DNA from: Dysgonomonas sp. Marseille-P4361
Lineage (GTDB): Bacteria > Bacteroidota > Bacteroidia > Bacteroidales > Dysgonomonadaceae
DNA length: 64,000 bases
Direction: 5' to 3'
NCBI RefSeq assembly: GCF_900343125.1
Contig: NZ_OPYL01000004.1
Location: 1-64,000 of the forward strand
The position numbers were made by a program, and so were the translations under genes. The notes beneath the pieces are model-generated. The model searched no databases, had not been told where the DNA came from, and saw only the letters and a list, made by a program, of their open reading frames with translations. How positions within the stretch are numbered: position 1 is the first letter of the stretch; each line of letters opens with the position of its first letter. Shown here one piece after another: positions 841 through 57,292 of the stretch.

Positions 841-3834
841 ATGAAAAATGACCAGATGAAGAATAAGAAGAAAAATCATCGACTTCTTAGCTTATTGTTA
901 TTTCTTGGTATTTCCTTTTTGGTAGCCGTACCAAATGTGGTGTGTGCAGGTCCTTTAGATGTCCAGCAAGAGATACGAAAGCAAATTTCAGGAACTATCA
1001 AAGACCGTCAAGGCAATCCCATTATTGGAGCATATGTACTCGTAAAAGGACAAACAGGAGGGACAACAAGTGATGAAGATGGAAAATATTCTATAGATGT
1101 TACAGGAGATGTAACCTTAGTATATAGTTATATTGGATTTCATACTATTGAAAGATCAACAAAAGGAGAAAATACAATAAATATCGTTTTAGTTGAAGAT
1201 GATCAAGACTTGAATGAGGTTGTAATAACAGGTTATAACACAGTTGAAAGAAAGCACTTAGCCTCTTCTATCGAATCTGTAGATATAGACAAAGTACAGA
1301 GAAGACCAGTCTTCAAATTACAAGAGGCTTTTGCCGGATCTGTATCCGGAGTAGTATTAAATCAGGGGAGCAATGCTCCTGGCGATGCAGGAACAATTTC
1401 AATTAGAGGCGTTGGAACCCTTAAAGGATCTACTCCTTTAGTGGTTATTGATGGAATGGAACAAAGCATGAGTGATATTGATTTGAACCAAATAAAGTCA
1501 ATCACTGTATTGAAAGATGCTTCTGCGGCATCAATGTATGGATCAAGGGGGGCAAATGGAGTTATCATTATTGAAACATTAAGGGGTAATACTGGTGAAT
1601 TTAAAGTTAGTTTACACTCTTGGGCTGCAGTACAATCCCAAACGGATAAACCAGATTTTGTGGGAGCTGCAGACTATATGATGCTAAACAATGAGGCAAA
1701 AAGACTACAAAATCAAACATTGCTATATACTCAAGATCAGATTGATGCTGCATCAAGAGGTGAGGGTCCAAATGTAGACTGGTGGGATGCTATAATGCAA
1801 CGAAGAGCAAGTGCTTATAACTTTAATGCCAATATTTCAGGTGGTGGTGGAGTTGGTACATTTAACCTGATGTTGGGTTATCTGACAGAAAATGGGTTAA
1901 ATAAAAAGGATGGGACTGATAAATTTAGTGCTCGTTTTAACACCAATATCAATATTGACGAACGTTTCATTATTATGGCAGACTTCTACGCTCATCGTTT
2001 AGCTGTAAATCGCTTGATGGCGAACGAGGGAAGAACAAATTACCTCTATAATCAAGCCTATAAGATGAATCCTACCCAGGAGATTTTCTATCCGGATTCG
2101 GATTTTGGTATTGCCAAGCATTATATGTTGCACAATGGTAATATCAATCCTGTAGCCACAATGAATGAGAGTGGACAGAGAAATAATTTACATGATAGAA
2201 TAACACTGAATATCAGACCTAGATATTATATTCTTCCCGAGTTTCATATTGCGGCAGACCTGTCTTATATGATGAATAAATCTTCAAGTAAATGGGAAAG
2301 ACAAACATTTCGTTTTTATGATGGAAATGGAGCTCCTGTTGATATGTGGGGACACTCTGTTAGCTCTTCTCAAGGAGTTAGTGAAAGCCAAATTACCGGA
2401 AGATTTCAAGCCAACTACGAGAAAGATCTTAGAGATAAAAAAGATAAACTATATATAGTTGCAGGGTCTGAAATAATGGACTATACATTTACTGATTTTA
2501 GACAAGTATCAAAGGCTTCATTCTTCGGAAAAGTGAACTATTCTTTTGATAACCGTTATCTACTAGAAGCAACAGTAAGGTCTGATGGAAGTAGCAAATT
2601 TGCTCCAGGACATCAATGGGGCATATTTCCCTCTATGTCAGTAGGATGGAACGTGCATAATGAGAGTTTCTTTAAGAATAACATAGATGAAAATATAATA
2701 AGCAACTTGAAATTTAGGTTTAGCTACGGTAAAATAGGAAATGAAGATGTAGATCCGTATCTGTGGCAGGAAAAAGTAAATACATGGGGATGGACAATGC
2801 GAATTCCTAACCCTAACTTTACTTGGGAAAAACAAAAACAATGGAATCTCGGTTTAGATTTTGCTGCCTTAAGAAACAGACTAAATATAACAGCAGATAT
2901 ATATGGAAAACAATCATATGATCTGATTTATGCCAAATTCCCTGCTCCTCCATTGACTGGAGCTAATGTCCTTGAGACAGCGATGAATATAGGCGAAGTT
3001 GAGAATAAAGGATGGGAACTAAGCCTGAAGTGGACGGACAAAGTAGGAGATAATTTCAGATATCAATTAGGAGCAATGTTGTTTGATAACAAGAATGAAG
3101 TAAAAAAAGCAGGGTACACTGCTGAAGATGAGCTTGTATTTAAGGATAATCCCGATAAAATATGGTATAGAGGTGTACCGGTAGAGAATTACTATGGCTA
3201 CACAACAGATGGCTATTTCCAATCTCAAGAAGAAATCAGTAATACCAAAGCAAAAATGCCAAATACACGTGTTGGGGATGTAAAATATGTAGATAGGAAT
3301 GATGATGGTATTATCAATGATGATGATAAGGTAATATTAGGATCTCCTCTTCCTCGTTATAACTATGCTGTTAGCATCGACTTAGGCTATAAAGATTGGG
3401 ACTTTTCTGTTTTAGGAACCGGTGTCGGTAAAAGAAATGGTAAACTTGGAGGACTGGAAGGAATGCCTGTTATTGTAGATGGAAGCACAAATGCTCTTGG
3501 CACTCCTAGAGAATACTACATGAAAAATAGATGGACGCCTGAAAACCCAAACAGTAGATTCCCCAGAGTTTGGACAGGAGCCAGTACAAATCAATACCTC
3601 AGTGATGTTTGGATTAGCGATGCTTCTTATTTTAGAATAAAGAGCTTACAGCTAGGTTACACTTTTAAGAAAGTAACAAAAGATATAAGCAATCTTAGAC
3701 TATATTTTAATGCTCAAGACTTTTTGACCGTAACCAACTGGGAAGGATTAGAGCCGGAAAGATATGATGGCGGTAATGGGGTTTATCCTAAAATGGCTAC
3801 ATATAGTGTTGGATTACAAGTGACATTCTTTTAA
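841..3834 (+). CDS. SusC/RagA-family TonB-dependent outer-membrane transporter
   Basis: This 997-residue outer-membrane beta-barrel should import a glycan or other oligomer, working with the SusD-like lipoprotein encoded 11 bases downstream and powered by TonB. A signal peptide occupies about residues 15-37, after a basic stretch. A carboxypeptidase-D regulatory-like domain follows (about 48-125, ISGTIKDRQGNPIIGAYVLV). The plug domain then spans about 140-250 and includes the family signatures RGVGTLKGSTPLVVIDG and VLKDASAASMYGSRGANGV. The remainder is barrel, ending in a terminal phenylalanine (QVTFF) as expected for BAM recognition. There is no N-terminal STN domain and no anti-sigma partner beside it, so regulation is probably not by the usual ECF pair. 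The substrate cannot be read from the sequence. Confidence 0.95.
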   Translation: MKNDQMKNKKKNHRLLSLLLFLGISFLVAVPNVVCAGPLDVQQEIRKQISGTIKDRQGNPIIGAYVLVKGQTGGTTSDEDGKYSIDVTGDVTLVYSYIGFHTIERSTKGENTINIVLVEDDQDLNEVVITGYNTVERKHLASSIESVDIDKVQRRPVFKLQEAFAGSVSGVVLNQGSNAPGDAGTISIRGVGTLKGSTPLVVIDGMEQSMSDIDLNQIKSITVLKDASAASMYGSRGANGVIIIETLRGNTGEFKVSLHSWAAVQSQTDKPDFVGAADYMMLNNEAKRLQNQTLLYTQDQIDAASRGEGPNVDWWDAIMQRRASAYNFNANISGGGGVGTFNLMLGYLTENGLNKKDGTDKFSARFNTNINIDERFIIMADFYAHRLAVNRLMANEGRTNYLYNQAYKMNPTQEIFYPDSDFGIAKHYMLHNGNINPVATMNESGQRNNLHDRITLNIRPRYYILPEFHIAADLSYMMNKSSSKWERQTFRFYDGNGAPVDMWGHSVSSSQGVSESQITGRFQANYEKDLRDKKDKLYIVAGSEIMDYTFTDFRQVSKASFFGKVNYSFDNRYLLEATVRSDGSSKFAPGHQWGIFPSMSVGWNVHNESFFKNNIDENIISNLKFRFSYGKIGNEDVDPYLWQEKVNTWGWTMRIPNPNFTWEKQKQWNLGLDFAALRNRLNITADIYGKQSYDLIYAKFPAPPLTGANVLETAMNIGEVENKGWELSLKWTDKVGDNFRYQLGAMLFDNKNEVKKAGYTAEDELVFKDNPDKIWYRGVPVENYYGYTTDGYFQSQEEISNTKAKMPNTRVGDVKYVDRNDDGIINDDDKVILGSPLPRYNYAVSIDLGYKDWDFSVLGTGVGKRNGKLGGLEGMPVIVDGSTNALGTPREYYMKNRWTPENPNSRFPRVWTGASTNQYLSDVWISDASYFRIKSLQLGYTFKKVTKDISNLRLYFNAQDFLTVTNWEGLEPERYDGGNGVYPKMATYSVGLQVTFF

Positions 3835-3845
3835 AAAATAATATT

Positions 3846-5456
3846 ATGAAAAAACATATTTTATATATCATACTGTCAATAGCATTGATTACTACCGGAT
3901 GTGATGGCTTCTTGGATAAACGAGATCCGGAGGCAACTACTTTCGTAGAGTTTTTTAATACCGAAGAGGATTTACGAAGGGTAGTATATAGTAGTTACCT
4001 AGACGTATTTACACATGGAAATATTCATCAAACGCTGTTCTATATGCAAGAAGGACGTAGTGATAATGCTTACTCAAGGGTTGACGGTCATCACCAACAA
4101 CGTTTGGCAAATGGCGATTACAATAGTTCCTCTAGTTTATTTTTATGGCACTGGGAAAATCATGGTAAACATACAGGTCGTCTAAATACATTTATAGCAA
4201 ATATAAATGCTCCTTATGTAGAAGATGAATCTATTCGTGATAAATATAAAGGCATATTAGAAGGGTTGAGAGTGTGGCATTATTTTATGATGACTGCACA
4301 ATGGGGAGATGTCCCATTTCATCTAGAGCCGGCCGATATGGTTAGTGCTCAACAACCGGTAACACCTAAAGAAGTTATACTCGATAGTCTGTTTAATATT
4401 GTAGATAGAATAACACCTAAAATGTCTCCAGATCAGTATAAGTCTGATAAATATATGTTTAATGCAAATTCATTAAAGGCTTTATCTGCACGTTATGCGT
4501 TGTTTAATAACCGTTACGAATTGGCTGCTAAATATGCTAAAGATGTTATAAACTCGGGAAAATACAGTCTACATCCCAATTACAGAGATCTATTCCAGTA
4601 TGAAGCGGCTTCCAACAACAAAGAGTTTATCATGCATATGGATAAAGATTGTTCTTCGACAAGATATGCTTTTAGAGATTTAGGCCCTCATTTCAGAACT
4701 GGAGGAGGTCAATCTTATGTTGTTCCTTTAAAATCGTTGGTTGACTCCTATTGGACATTGCAAGGTAACACTATTGACAAATGCCCACAACACACCAAAG
4801 AGGAATACGAATTAAATCCTAAATTAAACAGAGATCCTCGATACGAAGCTTCTATCATGGGACATGGAGATCTGTTTTATGGAGAAAAAATAGATATATA
4901 TGATCAGAATGCTCCTATGTTTCATGAGAAGGAAAGAGCGAGTAGATCAGGCTACTGGTTCAAAAAATACATGTCAGAGAATGATGCTTTTAGAGATAAT
5001 GGAGAAACAACATTAGAATATTCATTGTTAAGATATGCTGAAATTTTGTTAACCTATGCAGAAGCGAAGATCATGCTGAATCAAATTGATGATGAAGTAA
5101 AAGGCTATATCAATGCGATCAGAAAAAGAGCCGGTTTAGATATGACAGAAGCTGATGTTACTCTTCCTAAATATGCAGCTTATACTCAAGAGCAATGGAT
5201 TGAACTTATCCGTAACGAAAGAAGAATAGAACTTGCAGGGGAAGGAATTAGATATCTTGATATTATAAGATGGGGACTTGCCGAAAAAGTATTGAATCAA
5301 CCGGCGTTAGGTCATACTATAAAAGGTGCGGATGGTAAGCTTATTTCTTTGAAAATTGAAGATAGAAGCTTTACTGCTCCAACCAATTATTTGTGGCCAT
5401 TCCACGAAACAAGCTTGAGAGTTGAGCCAGGTCTTGTTCAAAACACAGGATATTAA
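3846..5456 (+). CDS. SusD/RagB-family substrate-binding lipoprotein
   Basis: This 536-residue surface lipoprotein should cap the SusC-like barrel encoded just upstream and capture its ligand. The signal peptide ends in a lipobox with cysteine 19 (LITTGCDG), followed by FLDKRDPEATTF, a typical SusD N terminus. The C-terminal half carries the usual SusD signatures: RYAEILLTYAEAK, then YINAIRKRAGL, then ELIRNERRIELAGEGIRYLDIIRWG, and a final segment with FTAPTNYLWPF. The length is normal for the family. It is co-transcribed with susC and followed by a good terminator. No glycoside hydrolase is attached to the pair, so the ligand is unknown and could even be peptide. Confidence 0.95.
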   Translation: MKKHILYIILSIALITTGCDGFLDKRDPEATTFVEFFNTEEDLRRVVYSSYLDVFTHGNIHQTLFYMQEGRSDNAYSRVDGHHQQRLANGDYNSSSSLFLWHWENHGKHTGRLNTFIANINAPYVEDESIRDKYKGILEGLRVWHYFMMTAQWGDVPFHLEPADMVSAQQPVTPKEVILDSLFNIVDRITPKMSPDQYKSDKYMFNANSLKALSARYALFNNRYELAAKYAKDVINSGKYSLHPNYRDLFQYEAASNNKEFIMHMDKDCSSTRYAFRDLGPHFRTGGGQSYVVPLKSLVDSYWTLQGNTIDKCPQHTKEEYELNPKLNRDPRYEASIMGHGDLFYGEKIDIYDQNAPMFHEKERASRSGYWFKKYMSENDAFRDNGETTLEYSLLRYAEILLTYAEAKIMLNQIDDEVKGYINAIRKRAGLDMTEADVTLPKYAAYTQEQWIELIRNERRIELAGEGIRYLDIIRWGLAEKVLNQPALGHTIKGADGKLISLKIEDRSFTAPTNYLWPFHETSLRVEPGLVQNTGY

Positions 5457-12073: not shown

Positions 12074-14413
12074 TTACATAGCCGCTTGTGACAACGAATA
12101 AGGTTTCTCTCCGTCTTTGAACAATCGCTTTTTGTTTGGTTTAGATGCCATTTCGAATGTCAGTTCTGCACCGTTTTTGATGTCGTCGTATGAGATATAC
12201 GCTTTGTTGTACGGTTTGCCATTCAGTTTCACAGACTTCACATAGCGCATTTTGTCGCTTACCTTGTCTGCTTTTATTTCCAGGTATTTGCCTTCGCCCA
12301 ATTTCACTTTCATGTAAGGAACGTAAGGAGCGCCAAGAATGTATTGGTTAGAACCCGGACAAACAGGATAGAAGCCCATTGCCGAGAAGATGTACCATGC
12401 CGACATCTGTCCGCAGTCATCATTTCCGCACAGACCATCTATCGTGTTCTTATACATACGGTTCATGATTTCGCGCACCCAATATTGCGTTTTCCAAGGT
12501 TGCGAAGTCCAAGCATAGAGGTATGGAATATGGTGGCTAGGCTCATTACCATGCACATAGTTTCCAAGGATTCCCTCGCGAGTTACGTCCTCTGTATGTT
12601 CGAAAAACTCGTCAGGAAGGTGCATAGTGAAAAGAGAGTCGAGACGGGTTACAAATTGTTTGTCCCCACCCATCTGAGCCATCAAACCTTTCACATCGTG
12701 CGGAACGTAGAACGAATAGTTCCAAGAGTTACCCTCGATGAAACCTTGTCCGTGTGTTTCCAACAAGTTAAAATTAGGTTTCCAGCTGCCATCGCTCATC
12801 TTAGCACGAACGAATTCCAATTCAGGATCGAATACGTTGTGATAACTGGCTGCACGTTTTTTGTACTGCTCTGCCACTTCTTTGTTGTTCATCTTAAGGG
12901 CAGTATTGTAAACAGTCCAGTCATCATACGAATATTCCAAGGTGATGGACGAACCGCTTCCATTTACATCGAACGGAACGTAACCCAAGCGTTTGTATTC
13001 GCCCGTACCGTCATAATAATCAACATTCGAACTGCTAATCATAGCTTCCAACGCTTTGTTGCGGTCGATATCTATTCCCTTATCCAGCGCATCAGCCAAT
13101 ACCGATACGGAGTGATAACCGATCATACACCAGTTTTCATTCCCCATATGCGACCATACCGGCAGTGCTTTGTGCACGCTTTGCTCGTAGTGCGCCAGCA
13201 TCGAGTTTACGATGTCTTTGCTACGATCGCGGTTGATAAGGTTGAATAGCGGATGAAGCGCACGATAGGTATCCCACACCGAGAATACAGTGTAGTTGGT
13301 AAAACCTTTTGCCTGATGGATGTTATGATCCAATCCTCTGTACTGACCGTCTACGTCCATATATACCGACGGATTGATCATCGTATGGTATAGCGATGTA
13401 TAAAGCATAGTCTTTTGGTCGTCGCTACCTTGCACCTCAATTACGCTTAGTTCTTTTTCCCACTTAGCCTCAGCTTCGGCTTCTATTTGGGCAAATGTTT
13501 TTCCTTTTGTTTCGGCATTCAGGTTTTTAACCGCTCCTTCGGTACTCACTGCCGACAAAGCCACTTTCACCTCAAGGGGTGTGTTATCGTTTCCAAACTC
13601 GAAGTTGCACACAATCTTGCGACCTGCTATTTCGGGGAAATTCTTATCCATTTTAAATTTCTTCCAGAAACCAACATATTTTGGTTTTTCGCGATCTACA
13701 TAGCCGTAATTCTTGATCGGTTTTGACAACGAAATAGCAAAATAAGTATAATTTTCGCGAGACCATCCGTTGGTAATGCGGTAACCAGTTATCAGGGTTT
13801 CGTTTTCCACTCTCAGGCTTGCCCACAATACTTTGCCATCGTAGTTGTAAATACCATGTACAAGGTCGAGAATCAGCTTTTGCTTTTCGCTCGTTGGGTA
13901 TGTATATTTGTGTACTCCTACCCTTTCGGTAGTTGTCAGTTGAGCTTTTACTCGGTAATCGTCCAACATCACTTCGTAGTAACCGGGACGAGCAATCTCT
14001 GTATCGTGACTGAAACGTGAACGATAGCCGCTATCAGGGTTGTCGGCTGTTCCGGGATTGAACTTCGTTTCGCCCGTATACGGCATGACAAGGATATCCC
14101 CTAGGTCGGAGTGTCCTGTTCCGCTAAAATGTGTATGGCTAAAGCCTACGATCGTATTATCGTCGTGCTGATAGCCTGCACAGTATTTGTAGGTGTCTTT
14201 GTTGTAAACGCCATTGATGTTTTGCGGAATGGTATCCGTATCGGGGCTTAGCTGAACAATACCATGCGGAACACATGCTCCGGGAAAGGTATGTCCCATT
14301 TTTACGGTTCCTATCATCGGATTGACGTAGGATGCTTTGTCTTGCGCCATCAAAGTTCCACCTACGGAAATAAGCAACGCAGCCAAGAGAGAGATTGTTT
14401 TGTTCGATTTCAT
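12074..14413 (-). CDS. GH92-family alpha-mannosidase, secreted
   Basis: This 779-residue glycoside hydrolase should release alpha-linked mannose from N-glycans or yeast mannan in the periplasm or at the surface; most characterised members are calcium-dependent exo-alpha-1,2-mannosidases. The signal peptide ends near residue 23 (LMAQ). The N-terminal beta-sandwich has YVNPMIGT, GHTFPGACVPHGIVQLSPDT and the conserved GFSHTHFSGTGHSDLGD. The (alpha/alpha)6 domain carries FSVWDTYRALHPL, GNEPSHHIPYLYAW, and NDDCGQMSAWYIFSAMGFYPVCPG. Length and motifs are complete. It stands alone with a promoter-like box and its own terminator. Its GC-richer codons contrast with the AT-rich neighbours, suggesting a stable core gene. 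Exact linkage preference cannot be read. Confidence 0.95.
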   Translation of the reverse strand: MKSNKTISLLAALLISVGGTLMAQDKASYVNPMIGTVKMGHTFPGACVPHGIVQLSPDTDTIPQNINGVYNKDTYKYCAGYQHDDNTIVGFSHTHFSGTGHSDLGDILVMPYTGETKFNPGTADNPDSGYRSRFSHDTEIARPGYYEVMLDDYRVKAQLTTTERVGVHKYTYPTSEKQKLILDLVHGIYNYDGKVLWASLRVENETLITGYRITNGWSRENYTYFAISLSKPIKNYGYVDREKPKYVGFWKKFKMDKNFPEIAGRKIVCNFEFGNDNTPLEVKVALSAVSTEGAVKNLNAETKGKTFAQIEAEAEAKWEKELSVIEVQGSDDQKTMLYTSLYHTMINPSVYMDVDGQYRGLDHNIHQAKGFTNYTVFSVWDTYRALHPLFNLINRDRSKDIVNSMLAHYEQSVHKALPVWSHMGNENWCMIGYHSVSVLADALDKGIDIDRNKALEAMISSSNVDYYDGTGEYKRLGYVPFDVNGSGSSITLEYSYDDWTVYNTALKMNNKEVAEQYKKRAASYHNVFDPELEFVRAKMSDGSWKPNFNLLETHGQGFIEGNSWNYSFYVPHDVKGLMAQMGGDKQFVTRLDSLFTMHLPDEFFEHTEDVTREGILGNYVHGNEPSHHIPYLYAWTSQPWKTQYWVREIMNRMYKNTIDGLCGNDDCGQMSAWYIFSAMGFYPVCPGSNQYILGAPYVPYMKVKLGEGKYLEIKADKVSDKMRYVKSVKLNGKPYNKAYISYDDIKNGAELTFEMASKPNKKRLFKDGEKPYSLSQAAM

Positions 14414-14496
14414 ATTTTGATGTTAAATAGTTAGCCTATCGTCAACGAAGATGCTGATCTGTTTATCTTTTGTGAAATTCTTCGTTTTTGTGCTCC

Positions 14497-14504
14497 CAAA
14501 GTTA
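14497..14504 (-). promoter_or_regulatory. -7 box candidate for the GH92 gene
   Basis: On the minus strand TAACTTTG matches TAnnTTTG, about 84 bases before the start codon at 14413. A correctly spaced TTTG upstream element is not clear (one lies 12 bases away), so support is moderate. Confidence 0.4.
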
Positions 14505-14659
14505 CAAACTAGATTTCAAATATCCATTTATATCGGATCCGACAGTCTATTTTTTAGCAAGAGTAACTCTTAACCATTTTGTAATCAAAGCTTCATTGTA
14601 TATAAACGTCTTTCTGACTCATTGTTTTTAAATTTATATACAATTAAAAACCTACAACT

Positions 14660-14854
14660 ATGATAGCAGAATTAACCCTAACGACACTGATTGTTTCAGC
14701 CTTTACAGAGTTGATGTACATCATGAGAGATAAGAAAAGGATTATCAACCGCCTCTTCGAAATAGGAGTTTATACCATCATCGCACTTCTTATTTTGCTT
14801 GGTATGCTACTGCTTGCAAAACTAAACGGGCACTTTCCGGCCTTTGCACATTGA
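14660..14854 (+). CDS. Small two-helix membrane protein (64 aa)
   Basis: A 64-residue protein with hydrophobic helices at about 3-20 and 36-55, separated by a basic loop (RDKKRIINRL). The family is not recognised and no partner gene is close; the phosphoesterase gene begins about 110 bases later with its own promoter box. The ATG at 14660 follows an A-rich stretch suited to Bacteroidota translation starts. The gene is real if judged by its clean membrane pattern, but it is short. Confidence 0.5.
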   Translation: MIAELTLTTLIVSAFTELMYIMRDKKRIINRLFEIGVYTIIALLILLGMLLLAKLNGHFPAFAH

Positions 14855-14929
14855 CAATAGTAGAGATTGGCAGATCGTTTTGAGATTTCTTTTCAAGTAT
14901 AATTCATTATCGGGGACAGCATCTTTTGC

Positions 14930-14937
14930 TATCTTTG
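14930..14937 (+). promoter_or_regulatory. -7 box for the phosphoesterase gene
   Basis: TATCTTTG lies 28 bases before the ATG at 14966 and matches TAnnTTTG exactly. The -33 element is not distinct. Confidence 0.5.
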
Positions 14938-14965
14938 TATAAGAAACCAAAACGATCTTAATGCT

Positions 14966-15958
14966 ATGAAAAAGATATGCTTTCTTGTACTTTTAGCTAC
15001 AAGCCTTTTCACCTTTGCCAACAAACCAGTATATGATATTTATCCTAAACAAGAACCGATAAGGCGGTCTATTTCGGTGGATGGAAACAGAATTTCCATT
15101 TATTCGAAGAATGTTCAACAACTGCGACACATTGTTTTTGCTGCCGATACACATTTAGCTATATCCGACGAGCGAGAGAATGACTTTAAGCAGTACAGTG
15201 CCAGAATGGCTGATGCCTACAGGATTACGAAACACTTCCGGACAGGTAAGGAAATGACTACGCGTCAGGCTTTTTTGGAAACAATAAATCATTCTAAGAA
15301 AAGCAATGCTGATCTATTGGTGCTATGCGGTGATATTATCAACTTTCCGTCCGAAGCTGCGGTAGAGTGGTGTCGGCAAAAGCTAGACAGCGCTCAGGTC
15401 AACTACAGCTATACGGCAGGAAACCACGACTGGCACTACGAGGGAATGTCGGGAAGTTCGATCGATCTGCGCGACAAATGGATCTCGGAACGGCTGATGC
15501 CCTTGTACCCAAAGTCTGCAGATCCGTTGATGTATTATATAGATGTGAAAGATGTACGGGTGTTGATGATCGATAATTCGGTATATGAGATTCTTCCCCG
15601 ACAACTTGCTTTTCTACAAGAACAAATCAAGACCGGCAAACCTCTTTTGATCTGCATGCATATCCCATTATATGCCGAAGGTCGTTCGGTGGGTTACGGA
15701 TGCGGCAATCCGAACTGGAATGCGAATACCGATCCTGGTTACAAAACGGAGAGAAGGCTGCCTTGGCCTGAGAAGGGGCATAGCAAAACGACTTACAAAT
15801 TCAGAGAGGAGATACTAAATGCAAAGAATGTTCTTGCTGTATTCTGCGGACATATACACGCCGAAACTGTTGATATGATTGGCAACACGCCACAGTTTGT
15901 GACCCAAATGAACGGGACGGGTGCATATTACGATATTTATATTTATCCCGAAATGTAG
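14966..15958 (+). CDS. Exported calcineurin-like metallophosphoesterase
   Basis: A 330-residue protein with a signal peptide (about 1-19) and a complete set of calcineurin-fold metal motifs: Asp61 and His63 in AADTHLA, Asp123 in CGDIINF, Asn153-His154 in AGNHDWH, a histidine in CMHIPLY, and the last pair in CGHIHAE. It should hydrolyse a phosphomonoester or phosphodiester in the periplasm using two metal ions. The substrate is not evident. An inserted acidic and basic helical stretch between the first and second motifs (about 67-110) is longer than in minimal family members. It is a single gene with its own promoter and terminator. Confidence 0.85.
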   Translation: MKKICFLVLLATSLFTFANKPVYDIYPKQEPIRRSISVDGNRISIYSKNVQQLRHIVFAADTHLAISDERENDFKQYSARMADAYRITKHFRTGKEMTTRQAFLETINHSKKSNADLLVLCGDIINFPSEAAVEWCRQKLDSAQVNYSYTAGNHDWHYEGMSGSSIDLRDKWISERLMPLYPKSADPLMYYIDVKDVRVLMIDNSVYEILPRQLAFLQEQIKTGKPLLICMHIPLYAEGRSVGYGCGNPNWNANTDPGYKTERRLPWPEKGHSKTTYKFREEILNAKNVLAVFCGHIHAETVDMIGNTPQFVTQMNGTGAYYDIYIYPEM

Positions 15959-45564: not shown

Positions 45565-48500
45565 TCATTTTGGTGCAGAAAAATATTTCTCCAATAATTC
45601 GGGACTATATTTTTGCATTAATCCTGCTACACGTTCTACTTTCTTAAATCCTGCATCCCTGGCAACACTATCTTCTTGTGCCAAGAATACTCCATTGCGG
45701 GCAATATGCATCATGTAATCAAGAGGATGAATTCTCACTCTTACTTGCTTAAACGATACTCCGCTGCTTAGGAACAATTCTGTATAAGACATTGTTTTCT
45801 CCAACAACTCTTCGTATCTCGCTTTATCGTAAACCTGATAATTATCCAATACTTGCATCATAATGCCTAATTGTTCGGCGATATCCCAAGTTGCACTTCT
45901 CATCGATCGAGGATCCATCGAAGCATACCATTTCAAGCTACCATCGGCTCTGTAAAGTATTTCGTCAGCTATTGCTTGCGCTTTTTCTGTTTGTCCCAGT
46001 TCGTAGTATGCCGATAGATAATCTACCGATTCGCCAGCACGAGGGATAGTAGTTCCAGGAAGCACCTCCACACATCTGTCAAGTGCCTGAAGCGCTCTTT
46101 CTTTATCTCCTTTTTCGAGTAAAGCAGAAATAAGCTGAGAGAATACAACACGGAACGAACGACACATTCTCAAACTATTCTCATCCAGATATACATTAGG
46201 GTCTTGGACATTACCCCATTGGTATTTATTTACCAGATTGTCGAACATTACATCCACATTAACGCCTCCGTTTTCTACAACTCCCGGCACAATGCGGTGA
46301 TTAATTCCTTCCAGCATCGAATGAGCATTCAGTTTCAATGGAGGAACACCGATAGTCAATGCATAATAGATAGGACGTTTCCAGTCATCTTTATTGATAT
46401 TTGCCAACATCTCCATAATCATTATTTCTTGTCGGTAAATACCTTGTGCATTGTCATCTATATTCAGCACAAACTCGCTCTTAGGTTTAGTACCCAATGC
46501 TTTCCAGTCAATCTTAGTAGTATCTATATCCATTTTCAGATTACGGCTCGGTACAACCATCTCTCCTTCCAAGAATGGGAATGGGTTACGAGGCGAATAC
46601 ACATCCAATGTTTTTAGTTTATCCAATACATCGTACAACGAAACGGTATCTTTGTAAGCCTCTGCATCGTAGAACTCAGAGAAGTTCATTCGTCCTACCC
46701 ACTTCGACTCTTGCGTACTTTGGAAGTTTTTGAGAAGAGCGTCTTCTATTTCTTGTCGGCTCAACACATAAGCAGCCTGACCTTTCGATCCCTGATAACG
46801 ATCTTCGGTCCATGTGATAGGCAGTGCCGGAGAATCATAAGCATCGCGACGCATTTGATCCACATACCAGTCTGTCTGCAAATAGCTCAGGTTACAGACA
46901 CGCACATCGGTACGATAACCTTCTACCTCCTGCAAATACCACAACGGGAAGGTATCATTGTCTCCCATAGTAAACAGTATTGCATTTGGCTCGCAACTAG
47001 TCAAATAGTTTTTACCAAAGTCGCGCATTACATATCGACCCGAACGGTCATGATCGTCCCAGTTTTCGGATGCCATCTGAACAGGCACAAACAAACATGC
47101 AACTGTAGCGATGATAGCCGAAGGAAGTTCCGGTAATTTATTTTTCAACAGATTCCAGAGAAATGCCACTCCAAAGCCTATCCAGATACAGAAGGCATAG
47201 AACGATCCGGCATAAGCATAGTCACGCTCGCGAGGCTCTTCGGGCTGCTGATTCAGATACAGAATAATAGCAATACCCGTCATAAAGAATAACATAAACG
47301 TTACCAAGAACTGTTGTTCTCCCTTTTTACCTCTCATCAACTGGAAAGCAATTCCCAATATACCTAAGAGAAGTGGCAACATGAAATAAGTATTATGTCC
47401 TTTATTTTCTGCTATGCTTGGAGGCAAGTTGTCTTGTGGACCTCTGCCTAATAATTCGTCTACAAACCCGATTCCCGTAATCCAGTTACCATTGGTTATA
47501 TCTCCATAGCCCTGAATATCATTCTGACGACCAGAGAAGTTCCACATGAAGTAACGGAAGTACATGAAGTTTAATTGATAATCGAAGAAGAAACGCATGT
47601 TGTCCAAGAAAGTTGGCGGCACTGCCAAATCAGTTACCCCTGCCCATAGGCGATACCCTCTCACATGTCTGTCTTCTTTCGAATACATACGAGGCAATAA
47701 CATCGTATTTGTTTGTTCGTATGTAGGGACTGTGCTTACTACAACATACTCATCTTTCTGATCAGGTGATGTTTTTGCTACTTTATCATAAGTTTTCTTT
47801 TCTCCGGCAAGAACTACATCTCTTGTCATCGGATCTCTCTTCTCGGTAGAGGCATATGTTTTTCCGTAAAACAACGGACGGTCTCCATACTGCTCGCGGT
47901 TAAGATAACTTGCCAGTGTAAACACATTCTCCGGCGAGTTTTGATCCATCGGTGTATTTGCTGCCGAACGAATAGGAATCAACGCAAAAGAAGAGTAACC
48001 TATAAGGATTACCATCAAACACAAGATAACAGTATTGATAAGTCTGAAGCTGATTTTCTTATAGAAATACAAGAAACCAACAAGACCGGCAACCAACAAT
48101 ATCCAAAGAAAAATGCTATCACCTATAAATGTGATTCCGCTCAACAGCATACACACTGCAAATGCAATCTTAGCGCGCTTCATATTCCCCTTAGACGACA
48201 GTGTTTCGTACAATCCCCAAACAATACCTGCCACAACTAGCAAGATGTAGAAGAATACACCTGTATTGTAAGAGAAGCCAAAGCCGTTAACAAACATCAG
48301 TTCGAACCATCCGCCTACTTTTGTAAACCCTGGTATGATACCATACATCAGCACCACAATGAGCAGCAATGATCCTATCAGTGCCAATAGCGTACCTTTA
48401 AGCGTTGGATTTTCTTGTTTCTTGAAATAATAAACCAATACGATGGCAGGGATACAAAGCAAGTTCAGCAAGTGAACCCCGATGGACAATCCCATAGCAT

Positions 48501-49047
48501 AAGCTATAAGCACCAACCATTTATCTGCTCCGGGTTGATCGGCGCGGTTTTCCCATTTCAGTATCAACCAGAATACAAGGGCTGTAAACATGGATGAATA
48601 GGCATAAACCTCTCCTTCGACAGCCGAAAACCAGAATGTATCGGTAAATGTATAAGTAAGAGCTCCAACCAATCCACTACCAATGATAGCGATTAACTGA
48701 CCGGTTGTCATCTCTTGTGTATTGTCTGTATAAATCAGTTTGCGCGCGAGGTGCGTTATAGTCCAGAAAAGGAACAATATGGTAGCCGCACTAAGCAATG
48801 CCGACATGGCATTTACCATCATCGCTACTTGTGTAGGATCGGAAGCAAACAGTGAAAAGAATTTAGCCGTAAGCATAAAGAATGGCGCCCCCGGCGGGTG
48901 TCCTACTTCCAGTTTATAGGCAGATGTGATAAACTCGCCACAATCCCAGAAGCTGGCAGTTGGCTCTATAGTCATCAGATAGACTATTGCCGCAACAGCA
49001 AAGCTAAACCAACCAAAAATGTTGTTAAACAGATTGAATCTCTTCAT
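45565..49047 (-). CDS. DUF2723 giant membrane protein (O-mannosyltransferase-like)
   Basis: A 1160-residue inner-membrane protein. The N-terminal signature IEPTASFWDCGEFITSAYKLEVGHPPGAPFF identifies DUF2723, a GT-C-like family related to eukaryotic TMEM260 and protein O-mannosyltransferases. The DCGE acidic motif in the first external loop is typical of lipid-linked-sugar transferases. About a dozen helices cover residues 10-690 or so. The last about 400 residues are soluble and probably periplasmic, with tetratricopeptide-like helices near the end (LEKGDKERALQALDRCVEVLP; YELGQTEKAQAIADEIL). It pairs with a polysaccharide deacetylase downstream. The acceptor is unknown; envelope or protein glycosylation is the best guess. 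Confidence 0.9.
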   Translation of the reverse strand: MKRFNLFNNIFGWFSFAVAAIVYLMTIEPTASFWDCGEFITSAYKLEVGHPPGAPFFMLTAKFFSLFASDPTQVAMMVNAMSALLSAATILFLFWTITHLARKLIYTDNTQEMTTGQLIAIIGSGLVGALTYTFTDTFWFSAVEGEVYAYSSMFTALVFWLILKWENRADQPGADKWLVLIAYAMGLSIGVHLLNLLCIPAIVLVYYFKKQENPTLKGTLLALIGSLLLIVVLMYGIIPGFTKVGGWFELMFVNGFGFSYNTGVFFYILLVVAGIVWGLYETLSSKGNMKRAKIAFAVCMLLSGITFIGDSIFLWILLVAGLVGFLYFYKKISFRLINTVILCLMVILIGYSSFALIPIRSAANTPMDQNSPENVFTLASYLNREQYGDRPLFYGKTYASTEKRDPMTRDVVLAGEKKTYDKVAKTSPDQKDEYVVVSTVPTYEQTNTMLLPRMYSKEDRHVRGYRLWAGVTDLAVPPTFLDNMRFFFDYQLNFMYFRYFMWNFSGRQNDIQGYGDITNGNWITGIGFVDELLGRGPQDNLPPSIAENKGHNTYFMLPLLLGILGIAFQLMRGKKGEQQFLVTFMLFFMTGIAIILYLNQQPEEPRERDYAYAGSFYAFCIWIGFGVAFLWNLLKNKLPELPSAIIATVACLFVPVQMASENWDDHDRSGRYVMRDFGKNYLTSCEPNAILFTMGDNDTFPLWYLQEVEGYRTDVRVCNLSYLQTDWYVDQMRRDAYDSPALPITWTEDRYQGSKGQAAYVLSRQEIEDALLKNFQSTQESKWVGRMNFSEFYDAEAYKDTVSLYDVLDKLKTLDVYSPRNPFPFLEGEMVVPSRNLKMDIDTTKIDWKALGTKPKSEFVLNIDDNAQGIYRQEIMIMEMLANINKDDWKRPIYYALTIGVPPLKLNAHSMLEGINHRIVPGVVENGGVNVDVMFDNLVNKYQWGNVQDPNVYLDENSLRMCRSFRVVFSQLISALLEKGDKERALQALDRCVEVLPGTTIPRAGESVDYLSAYYELGQTEKAQAIADEILYRADGSLKWYASMDPRSMRSATWDIAEQLGIMMQVLDNYQVYDKARYEELLEKTMSYTELFLSSGVSFKQVRVRIHPLDYMMHIARNGVFLAQEDSVARDAGFKKVERVAGLMQKYSPELLEKYFSAPK

Positions 49048-49486: not shown

Positions 49487-51316
49487 ATGCGCACAAAACT
49501 ATTCATCATCACAGTTCTCCTTTTTGCCATCTGTTCATCAGGAGCCTATTCACAAGATAAAAAGACAACCAAAGCCGTTCTGAACGAAGCTACTGTATTT
49601 TTTCAAGGGGCAGAACTGATTCACTCTGCAACATACACCTTAGCTAAGGGTGAAAACGAGTTATTTATCGAAGGACTGAGTCCCAGCATCGACAAAAACA
49701 GCCTTAAGATTAAGACGACTAACAATGTCATTGTTTCTGCCTATGAGTTTTCGGTCGATTTCCTCTCTGGAAGTAAAGGAAAAAGCTCTGTAGTGAAAAA
49801 ACTGCAAGATTCTATCGACTTCTACCAAAAGAGACTGAATGAGATAGAGACAGAGATAACAATAAACGAGGACATGATCGAATTCCTAGAAAAAGGGACA
49901 GATAAAAATGTATCCGGATCGGAGAAGGGACTGGGAATAGACGAGTTGGTTAAGACAATGGAATATTACAAAACCAAGGCTTTCGAATTGCAAAGCACCC
50001 TGACTGCAAGTAATAAAAAGAAAGACGAAACCGAAGAAACCATTTCTCGCCTAAGAAAACAACTCAGTACAGAATCGCTCAAAAACGACAAATCATCCGG
50101 TGTATTGAAACTAAAGTTAACTGCTCCTGCAAGTGGCAGCTGCAACTTCACTATATCTTACTACACCACCGCTGCGGGATGGATGCCTTATTACGACATC
50201 AATATTACCTCTACCGATCAACCAATAAAGATTGCCGCCAAATCGCGCGTCAAACAAACAACCGGCATGGATTGGGAAAAAGTAAAACTGACTCTATCTT
50301 CTGCTACCCCCAGCAAAGGGAAAACTGCTCCGCTATTTAGCGCATGGTTTGTAGATTATGTACAACCAAACCTCTCTGCACTCCATGGTGTAACTACTAG
50401 CGTCCCTTCACAAAACTCTTACAGCTATAATGAAAAATCTGCAGCAAAAAAGACTCCCAAGGAAGGAGAATTTTGGATACGAGGTATTTCTTCCCTCAAC
50501 AGTAATACTCAACCCTTGTATGTAGTGGACGGACAGATAGTCGAAGACTTAAATTCTATTGATATTGCAATGGTAAAAGATTTTCAAGTTCTTAAAGATG
50601 CAAGCGCAACCGGTATCTATGGTGCCAGAGCCTCGAATGGCGTAGTTGTTATCTCTCTGAAAGAAAGCATGGATGATTTCGTTACCCAAGCCGAAACAGA
50701 CCTAAACATTGCCTACAACATCGATCTGCCTTACACCATACCGGGTAACGGTAAAGAGCAAATAATAGACCTGCAGACTAAAGAAACTACAGCCGAATAC
50801 AAATACTATTGTGCCCCGAAACTCGATACAGAAACCTATCTGCTTGCTGAAATTTCGGATTGGCAAAAACTGAATCTACTTAGTGGAAAGGCAAATATTA
50901 CCTACGAAGGCACCTATGTGGGCGAATCACAAATCGAAGCTTCATCTACGCAACAGAAATTGACGCTTACCTTGGGCAGCGACAAGCGCGTGACTGTAAA
51001 ACGCGAAAAGATGCAAGATTTCAGCAGTGGCGCTAAGTTCTTAGGGAATGACATCAAACAGGCATTTACTTACAAGCTAACGGTTCGCAACAATCAGAAC
51101 AAGGCTATAAAAATGGTTCTCAAAGACCAGTATCCTATCTCGATGCAGAAAGAGATAGAAGTGGAATTGTTGACAAAGGAAACAACCCCTTGGACAGCCA
51201 ACAAGGAAGACTTGGGTGTTATCACATGGGAAGAGGAACTGAAAGCTGGCGAAACCAAAACATACAAGATGAGTTATACGGTTAAATACCCGAAAGGGCG
51301 CAAGCTGAATTTATAA
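49487..51316 (+). CDS. DUF4139 secreted protein with an inserted TonB-receptor plug-like segment
   Basis: A 609-residue exported protein; the signal peptide ends near residue 22 (AYSQ). Residues 28-125 form the N-terminal DUF4140-like part (LNEATVFFQGAELIHSATYTL), then comes a coiled coil (about 105-200). The DUF4139 beta region starts about 205 (ASGSCNFTISYYTTAAGWMPYYDI) and ends with the family-typical WEEELKAGETKTYKMSYTVKYP. Inside it, residues about 328-392 read RGISSLNSNTQPLYVVDGQ and VLKDASATGIYGARASNGVVVIS. These match the SusC plug signatures RGVGTLKGSTPLVVIDG and VLKDASAASMYGSRGANGV of the receptor at 841. No barrel follows. The function is unknown, and related proteins are called mucoidy-inhibitor-like. 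Confidence 0.9.
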   Translation: MRTKLFIITVLLFAICSSGAYSQDKKTTKAVLNEATVFFQGAELIHSATYTLAKGENELFIEGLSPSIDKNSLKIKTTNNVIVSAYEFSVDFLSGSKGKSSVVKKLQDSIDFYQKRLNEIETEITINEDMIEFLEKGTDKNVSGSEKGLGIDELVKTMEYYKTKAFELQSTLTASNKKKDETEETISRLRKQLSTESLKNDKSSGVLKLKLTAPASGSCNFTISYYTTAAGWMPYYDINITSTDQPIKIAAKSRVKQTTGMDWEKVKLTLSSATPSKGKTAPLFSAWFVDYVQPNLSALHGVTTSVPSQNSYSYNEKSAAKKTPKEGEFWIRGISSLNSNTQPLYVVDGQIVEDLNSIDIAMVKDFQVLKDASATGIYGARASNGVVVISLKESMDDFVTQAETDLNIAYNIDLPYTIPGNGKEQIIDLQTKETTAEYKYYCAPKLDTETYLLAEISDWQKLNLLSGKANITYEGTYVGESQIEASSTQQKLTLTLGSDKRVTVKREKMQDFSSGAKFLGNDIKQAFTYKLTVRNNQNKAIKMVLKDQYPISMQKEIEVELLTKETTPWTANKEDLGVITWEEELKAGETKTYKMSYTVKYPKGRKLNL

Positions 51317-56428: not shown

Positions 56429-57292
56429 ATGGAGGAACAAAAAGACAAAATGATTGGTATGGCTGGAACGGCAGGTTTTCACTTGCTGATTATAGGTCTT
56501 TTGTTAATTTTCTATTTAGCCCCTACTCCCGAAGTTCGCCAACCCGAAGAGCTGGGCGGTGTTCCCGTTATGTTTGGCAATGTTGCCGATGCTTTCGGAG
56601 ACAACGAACCCTTTGGAAGAGGTAAGGGGGATGTAGGAGCTAAGGAAACAACTGCTCCTAATGTGGTTGAAGATCCAACTCCACTGGTAGAAAATACAAG
56701 CAAACAATCTAAGCCTGCTGTTTCGAATACGGAAACGACTCCTGCCACTCAGGACTTTGAAGAAACGGTAGCTATTAAAGAAGCAAAGAAAAAAGCTGAC
56801 GAGCAAAAACAACGTGAAGCCGAAGAACAACGCAAGAAAGCTGAGGCAGACCGAATTGCTGCTCAACAAGCAGAAAAGAAAGGTCAGATAAGTAACCAAA
56901 TGGCAGGACTGTTTGGCAACGGAGATGGCGATGGTAGCCGTGGCGAGACCACCGGCACAGGTACTCAAGGTGTACCAACAGGAAATGCGAGCCACGGGAA
57001 AACTTCCGGTATCGGGGGATGGGGTTCGTACGATCTTGGAGGACGCAGCCTTGGCAGAGGAGGTTTGATAAAACCTAGCTATACTGTAAACGACTATGGA
57101 ACTGTTGTTGTAGACATTCTGGTAAATGCAAAAGGTGATGTAGTGGAAGCTACTATCGGCAAAGGAACGAATACAGCAAATGCAACTTTACGAAGCGAAG
57201 CTCTCAGAGCCGCTAAACGGACTAAGTTTAATGAGGTTAGTGCAGTGACGAACCAAAAAGGGACAATCACTTATAAATTTAACCTGAATTAA
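56429..57292 (+). CDS. TonB-like energy transducer
   Basis: A 287-residue inner-membrane protein with one N-terminal helix (about 13-32, AGFHLLIIGLLLIFYL). A long periplasmic linker rich in Pro, Thr, Lys and Glu follows, including a coiled-coil-like stretch (KEAKKKADEQKQREAEEQRKKAEADR). The C-terminal TonB-like domain is at about 215-287 (YTVNDYGTVVVDILVNAKGDVVEATIG; ALRAAKRTKFNEV). It should pass proton-motive-force energy to outer-membrane receptors such as the SusC protein at 841, with ExbB and ExbD encoded elsewhere. The linker also has a glycine-rich stretch before the C-terminal domain (GIGGWGSYDLGGRSLGRGG). Confidence 0.85.
   Translation: MEEQKDKMIGMAGTAGFHLLIIGLLLIFYLAPTPEVRQPEELGGVPVMFGNVADAFGDNEPFGRGKGDVGAKETTAPNVVEDPTPLVENTSKQSKPAVSNTETTPATQDFEETVAIKEAKKKADEQKQREAEEQRKKAEADRIAAQQAEKKGQISNQMAGLFGNGDGDGSRGETTGTGTQGVPTGNASHGKTSGIGGWGSYDLGGRSLGRGGLIKPSYTVNDYGTVVVDILVNAKGDVVEATIGKGTNTANATLRSEALRAAKRTKFNEVSAVTNQKGTITYKFNLN

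Follow-up and report, generated by a model that had tools for sequence, protein, structure and literature searches.

The window, the whole stretch of 64,000 nucleotides of Dysgonomonas sp. Marseille-P4361 DNA that was analysed (source genome, 3.3 Mb in 13 contigs), carries a gene of the muiA family whose 609-residue product holds a piece of a SusC-type receptor plug inside a loop of its DUF4139 domain (Table 1). The open reading frame described in the first-pass annotation is real, and both sequence strings quoted there were found in its translation. The protein resembles the MuiA family, TIGR02231, in having both DUF4140 and DUF4139, and over its whole length it scored 250.5 bits against a cut-off of 112.6 (NCBIfam). 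The Pfam match to DUF4139 (PF13598, E 9e-53) spans residues 222-603 and is interrupted by the Plug match, so that the domain does lie on both sides of the insert, as had been proposed. In an alignment with relatives, the insert occupied a loop bounded by APLFSAWF and PYTIPGNG. The region between DUF4140 and DUF4139 is referred to here as the coiled-coil region, for which such models gave only sub-cut-off matches (Rootletin, E 0.019). L numbers denote the proteins or loci read and G numbers the genomes in the comparison.

Table 1. Features of the muiA-family gene in the window, with the DUF6146 genes found directly upstream of muiA in relatives
Feature	Position	Strand	Basis or remark
muiA-family gene, 609 aa	49487..51316	+	ORF list, Pfam, NCBIfam
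Putative signal peptide, residues 1 to ~22	start of 49487..51316 ORF	+	by eye from sequence
DUF4140, residues 35-134	49589..49888	+	Pfam PF13600, E 2.2e-17
DUF4139 first part, residues 222-288, ending APLFSAWF	50150..50350	+	PF13598 and alignment with relatives
Variable DUF4139 loop, residues 289-412	50351..50722	+	receptor pieces here in many relatives
QNSYSY motif, residues 309-314	50411..50428	+	also in L016, L035 and L037, which have no detectable half-plug
Pfam Plug match, residues 321-386, profile 40-107 of 107	50447..50644	+	PF07715, E 2.3e-8
Half-plug core, residues 343-392, PLYVVDG...NGVVVISL + 2 residues	50513..50662	+	also in M56 and DUF6146 proteins
DUF4139 second part, residues 413-603	50723..51295	+	Pfam
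Small secreted-looking DUF6146 protein with half-plug	L036 2902-3576
Small secreted-looking DUF6146 protein with half-plug	L034 1673-2422
Small secreted-looking DUF6146 proteins with half-plug (tandem)	L224 5517-6915

Residues 321-395 are homologous to the C-terminal half of the SusC/RagA plug. The Plug match scored 35 bits against a cut-off of 23.9 (Pfam), and solved SusC/RagA plugs aligned to residues ~329-395 (best E 2.4e-9), with two single-residue gaps in each of three alignments. The first-pass annotation had recognized a plug core in a DUF4139 protein; the homology was confirmed, but it covers the C-terminal half only and not the whole plug. In contrast to a receptor, the protein lacks both the N-terminal half of the plug and CarboxypepD_reg, the SusC N-terminal domain (Pfam), and no site in its loop reached 7 bits as a TonB box. 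No outer-membrane barrel model matched it at E up to 10 (Pfam), in agreement with the original description. Its scores fell below the cut-offs of both SusC models (NCBIfam), narrowly for the SusC/RagA signature TIGR04057 (44.5 bits, cut-off 46.2) and by far for TIGR04056 (87.3 bits, cut-off 368). The close likeness once seen to the receptor at 841 did not hold up: the identity was 39% over ~78 residues, so that, with the protein itself set aside, that receptor ranked 13th among the matches in the genome, and others reached 50-51% over 67 residues. Since the window protein has no TonB box, a direct contact with TonB through one is not supported for it.

No SusD-type gene was found adjoining muiA, the neighbours being a TMEM260-like gene and ABC-2 transporter genes. 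The TMEM260-like protein O-mannosyltransferase gene (45565-49047, minus strand) was also located beside muiA in L224 and, judged by sequence, in L036. Elsewhere in the window, an open reading frame of 287 residues (56429-57292) had no Pfam match at 1e-4; a TonB_C match at its end scored 23.1 bits, just below the cut-off of 24.6.

Receptor pieces in the DUF4139 loop of Bacteroidota

DUF4139 was searched in 101 genomes of the family, 295 of the order and 345 of the phylum, and matches were obtained in 21, 109 and 82 of them, respectively. In the phylum sample, which was an even one, 32 of the 86 listed matches spanned at least 1100 bases, corresponding to a long insert, while 54 spanned less than 1050. 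The 161 proteins that were read, with profiles made from receptors of the window's own genome, were picked mostly for length, and the set is thus biased to long ones. In this set the loop held a CarboxypepD_reg domain in 74 proteins and the plug C-terminal half in 30, three of which (L159, L160, L163) had both; 71 of the 74 CarboxypepD_reg-bearing proteins had no detectable plug C-terminal half, and 52 proteins had none of the four receptor pieces sought. What the first-pass annotation had missed is that the same site elsewhere holds the SusC N-terminal domain with a well-kept TonB box, or the whole N-terminal module.

Pfam agreed with the profiles in finding CarboxypepD_reg in L032, CarboxypepD_reg and Plug in L159, and Plug in L142 and L148; the half-plug of L018 was detected by our own profile (E 4e-10) and not by Pfam. 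The CarboxypepD_reg-type MuiA proteins L032 and L159 share with the window protein the same host protein, site and source receptor module, but they differ from it in having a TonB box and PF13715 (E 1.9e-21 in L032). A plug is also present in L159; in L032 Pfam finds none. The insert of L123 resembled a Rhodothermus gene annotated as a TonB-dependent receptor (31% over 80% of the length, E 8e-13), and some inserts, this one among them, seem to be derived from another receptor type. Scraps of TonB box or plug were found in the short loops of L059, L061, L069, L079, L081, L166, L167 and L168, and the receptor pieces of L148 and L168 were in an unusual order. In contrast, three proteobacterial MuiA proteins had no receptor piece and only 98-101 residues where the window protein has 168; the site is therefore a loop of variable length. 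On the host tree, five insert labels required 23 changes, compared with a mean of 74.5 and a minimum of 66 in 200 shuffles, indicating that the insert type is inherited within clades, yet has changed many times. Repeated capture is compatible with the 23 changes, as is repeated loss from an old module. In Bacteroidota, the DUF4139 loop is a hot spot for parts of the TonB-dependent receptors' N-terminal module.

In the passages of PMC7782687 that concern the SusC protein Bt1763, VDEVVV was tested as the TonB box by deletion and alanine mutants; it follows an N-terminal CarboxypepD_reg domain, the function of which is given there as unknown, and deletion of the SusC N-terminal domain resulted in no detectable growth on levan. 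Among the MuiA inserts with CarboxypepD_reg, 57 of 74 had a TonB box of at least 10 bits (1.35 expected from shuffles). The corresponding numbers were 13 of 87 for the proteins without CarboxypepD_reg (0.72 expected) and 4 of 27 for those with only a half-plug (0.35 expected). Within the CarboxypepD_reg inserts, the identity was 0.563 in the box, 0.337 in the domain, 0.355 in the MuiA flanks and 0.136 in the stretch after the box, where only 15 of 74 rows were well filled. The most surprising result is that the TonB box is better kept than its surroundings in proteins that mostly have no detectable plug C-terminal half.

One reading of these data is that the loop, that of the window protein included, is pulled by TonB-ExbBD in the fashion of a receptor. 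The box is the best-kept part of the CarboxypepD_reg inserts, far more frequent there than expected, and it also occurs beside the half-plug in L018, L022, L023 and L148, members of the clade to which the window protein belongs. However, the loop in the window has neither the box nor CarboxypepD_reg, few half-plug-only proteins reach 10 bits, and muiA showed no shared neighbour: when the genes of 21 loci (the window and 20 relatives) were clustered by blastp, no family besides MuiA was common to more than three of them. Direct coupling that extends to the window protein is consequently very unlikely.

Inheritance and selection of the half-plug

The half-plug was detectable in 20 of the 25 proteins of the host-tree clade that holds the window protein. 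The exceptions were L012, L016, L017, L035 and L037, three of which still have the QNSYSY-type motif beside the site, and the half-plugs of L010, L018, L026, L099 and L111 were badly worn. Records with this insert at this site include L034 (Dysgonomonas sp. PF1-14), L036 (a MAG labelled Prevotella) and L038 (a Tannerellaceae MAG). The nearest full-length relatives were ~68% identical. The source genome has many receptor copies of its own that could recombine, but with the insert found at this site in so many other genomes, the probability that it is an artefact of assembly or recombination in the source genome is negligible. A recent recombination artefact, the outcome that the first-pass annotation had set against its own proposal, likewise fails in view of the retention across the clade.

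Two loci were disrupted. In L038, muiA (2992-4773) is spread over three frames, which implies a break in the gene or an error of assembly; the half-plug there shows little wear. In L174 (G031:C23), muiA is split into two parts, 1961-2845 and 14267-15244, with ~11.4 kb separating the QNSYS motif from the half-plug. The intervening stretch contains an IS110-type transposase, an endolysin-like gene (PHROG, E 5.5e-23) and a gene whose replication-initiator matches are only weak, and in this gene content it resembles a small phage-like element. No relatives were found in viral contigs.

In 15 relatives, the mean identity between inserts was 0.48, while that between the inserts and 24 receptors of the window's own genome was 0.38 and that among the receptors 0.51. 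Recent gene conversion from the genome's own receptors was not favoured, the inserts being closer to one another than to the receptors. In a tree of plugs, 27 of the 30 MuiA half-plugs grouped together and L080, L087 and L115 fell among the receptors; a single clade for all 30 was not rejected (p-AU 0.359) in this tree of 72 columns, in which 27 of 55 inner branches were open.

Selection was compared in 19 of the 20 half-plug-bearing clade members, the incomplete L021 being omitted. DUF4140 had a mean identity of 0.60, and the two parts of DUF4139 had 0.63 and 0.68. The half-plug (0.495) was level with the coiled-coil region (0.48); the two linkers that precede it stood at 0.31 and 0.135 and the stretch that follows at 0.55. 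The differences at codon positions 1, 2 and 3 were 0.416, 0.282 and 0.664 in the half-plug, 0.421, 0.277 and 0.636 in the coiled-coil region and 0.659, 0.630 and 0.702 in the linker before the half-plug. The pattern of the half-plug is that of the coiled-coil region and unlike that of the linker, indicating that the half-plug is held as protein.

These values bear on the view that the insert is an eroding relic, in which chance recombination placed receptor DNA in a loop that tolerates inserts and the remnant now drifts without a job. The recurrent loss and wear of the half-plug within the clade, the scraps in short loops, the odd order of pieces, the many label changes on the host tree and the dozens of receptor genes per genome that could serve as recombination partners are all in its favour. 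It is weakened by the codon data, since in both codon positions and identity the half-plug is equal to the coiled-coil region and very unlike the linker, and by new, clade-specific constraint on a K (0.84) and on the Y of PLYVVDG (0.95). A relic is, on balance, rather unlikely.

The PLYVVDG, YG and NGV motifs are largely kept in the half-plugs of the clade. Residues conserved in SusC, as seen in 24 receptor rows, were relaxed (R, 1.0 to 0.53; G, 1.0 to 0.63; K, 0.96 to 0.58), a D present in 0.92 of the receptors was replaced mostly by M, and an E (0.71) was replaced by the constrained K. We read this as a change in the kind of constraint, in which the fold would have been kept and a receptor-specific surface given up. 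The half-plug thus appears domesticated rather than a working pore plug.

The clear homology to SusC plugs also leaves room for a mimic that docks in SusC barrels or aids their assembly, and an interaction with SusC barrels had been suggested earlier. Against it, the N-terminal half of the plug is absent, and positions that are near-invariant in the genome's own receptors, and presumably face the barrel, are relaxed; such a role is highly improbable. The more general proposal, that an envelope protein which is no receptor carries a unit derived from a plug, is borne out by the retention within the clade and the selection at the protein level.

Other carriers of plug pieces

Fifty places in the window's own genome match Plug, and among those read at least two are non-receptors other than the window protein. 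One, at 1106-2707 of L175 (from contig 11), is a BlaR1/M56 protein in which three C-terminal half-plugs were read in the sequence; the other, at 3-2501 of L177 (from contig 12), is an alpha-2-macroglobulin frame of 1544 residues in all, in which a TonB-box-like stretch was found along with the complete plug profile. In the genus, DUF6146 gave 15 matches in 10 of 25 genomes, and a half-plug was detected in 10 of these 15 proteins at a profile E of 1e-4 or less. By coordinates, muiA is immediately preceded by a DUF6146 gene in G005 (two copies), G008, G017 and G023; the DUF6146 product has a half-plug in G005, G017 and G023, and none was found in G008. No match to DUF6146 was found in the window's own genome.

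Like the window protein, L175, L177 and the DUF6146 proteins of relatives are envelope proteins that carry plug or half-plug stretches and are not receptors, but their host folds are unrelated to MuiA, and the whole plug of L177 and the three half-plugs of L175 are unlike the single half-plug of MuiA. That the 50-residue unit occurs in M56 and DUF6146 proteins, singly or as tandem copies, argues for its independence. A SusC-type receptor gene on contig 11 (L176, 819500-823000) was found in two frames, with CarboxypepD_reg in a frame of 180 residues and a plug half with a barrel-like rest in one of 731 residues. In the open-licence part of PubMed Central, covered mainly as titles and the beginnings of abstracts, no description was found of plug or TonB-box inserts in MuiA, M56, alpha-2-macroglobulin or DUF6146 proteins.

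The half-plug as a candidate contact module

The insert is a long-kept, real domain capture, of which the window protein is one instance. The explanation that we propose, tentatively and at somewhat less than an even chance when taken as a whole, is that the C-terminal half of a SusC plug has been domesticated in a permissive, variable loop of DUF4139 and serves there as a contact module. Its evolutionary part is probable: pieces of the receptor N-terminal module (CarboxypepD_reg, TonB box, plug) are held in the DUF4139 loop of many Bacteroidota MuiA proteins, and in the clade of the window protein the C-terminal half of the plug has been retained under protein-level selection while the residues typical of a working plug are relaxed. 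The role as a contact module is possible, though doubtful. The half-plug is predicted to fold alone as a small alpha/beta unit and would make its contacts in the neighbourhood of receptors or their partners, most likely on the periplasmic side of the outer membrane, and not as a plug of the pore. Lineages that keep the TonB box suggest that the MuiA family may touch the TonB system, a direct contact that the lineage in the window would have lost or replaced. Counted against the proposed explanation are the identity of the half-plug, which is lower than in both parts of DUF4139, the bad wear of several half-plugs, the gene neighbourhoods, in which no family besides MuiA was common to more than three of the 21 loci, and the five clade members with no detectable half-plug, from which it follows that the half-plug is dispensable in places.

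A bolder extension, quite unlikely in our estimate, is that Bacteroidota MuiA proteins make up a class of envelope proteins which are coupled to TonB and are not receptors. Their loop would repeatedly have taken up the periplasm-facing module of receptors, with the box selected in most module-bearing lineages so that TonB-ExbBD can act on a barrel-less partner. The window protein, with its half-plug, would then represent a branch that kept not the box but another contact surface of the module.

The plug normally closes a nutrient-uptake pore, and TonB is known to act on outer-membrane barrels. The receptor pieces at the MuiA site hint at a connection with the TonB energy system. The MuiA proteins that have CarboxypepD_reg and the box, but no barrel, would offer a small system in which to seek the partner of the SusC N-terminal domain. 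If the account is true, a well-kept TonB box in barrel-less proteins, together with the presence of plug pieces in envelope proteins of four unrelated kinds, would mean that the periplasmic module of the receptors can be reused and has its own partners.
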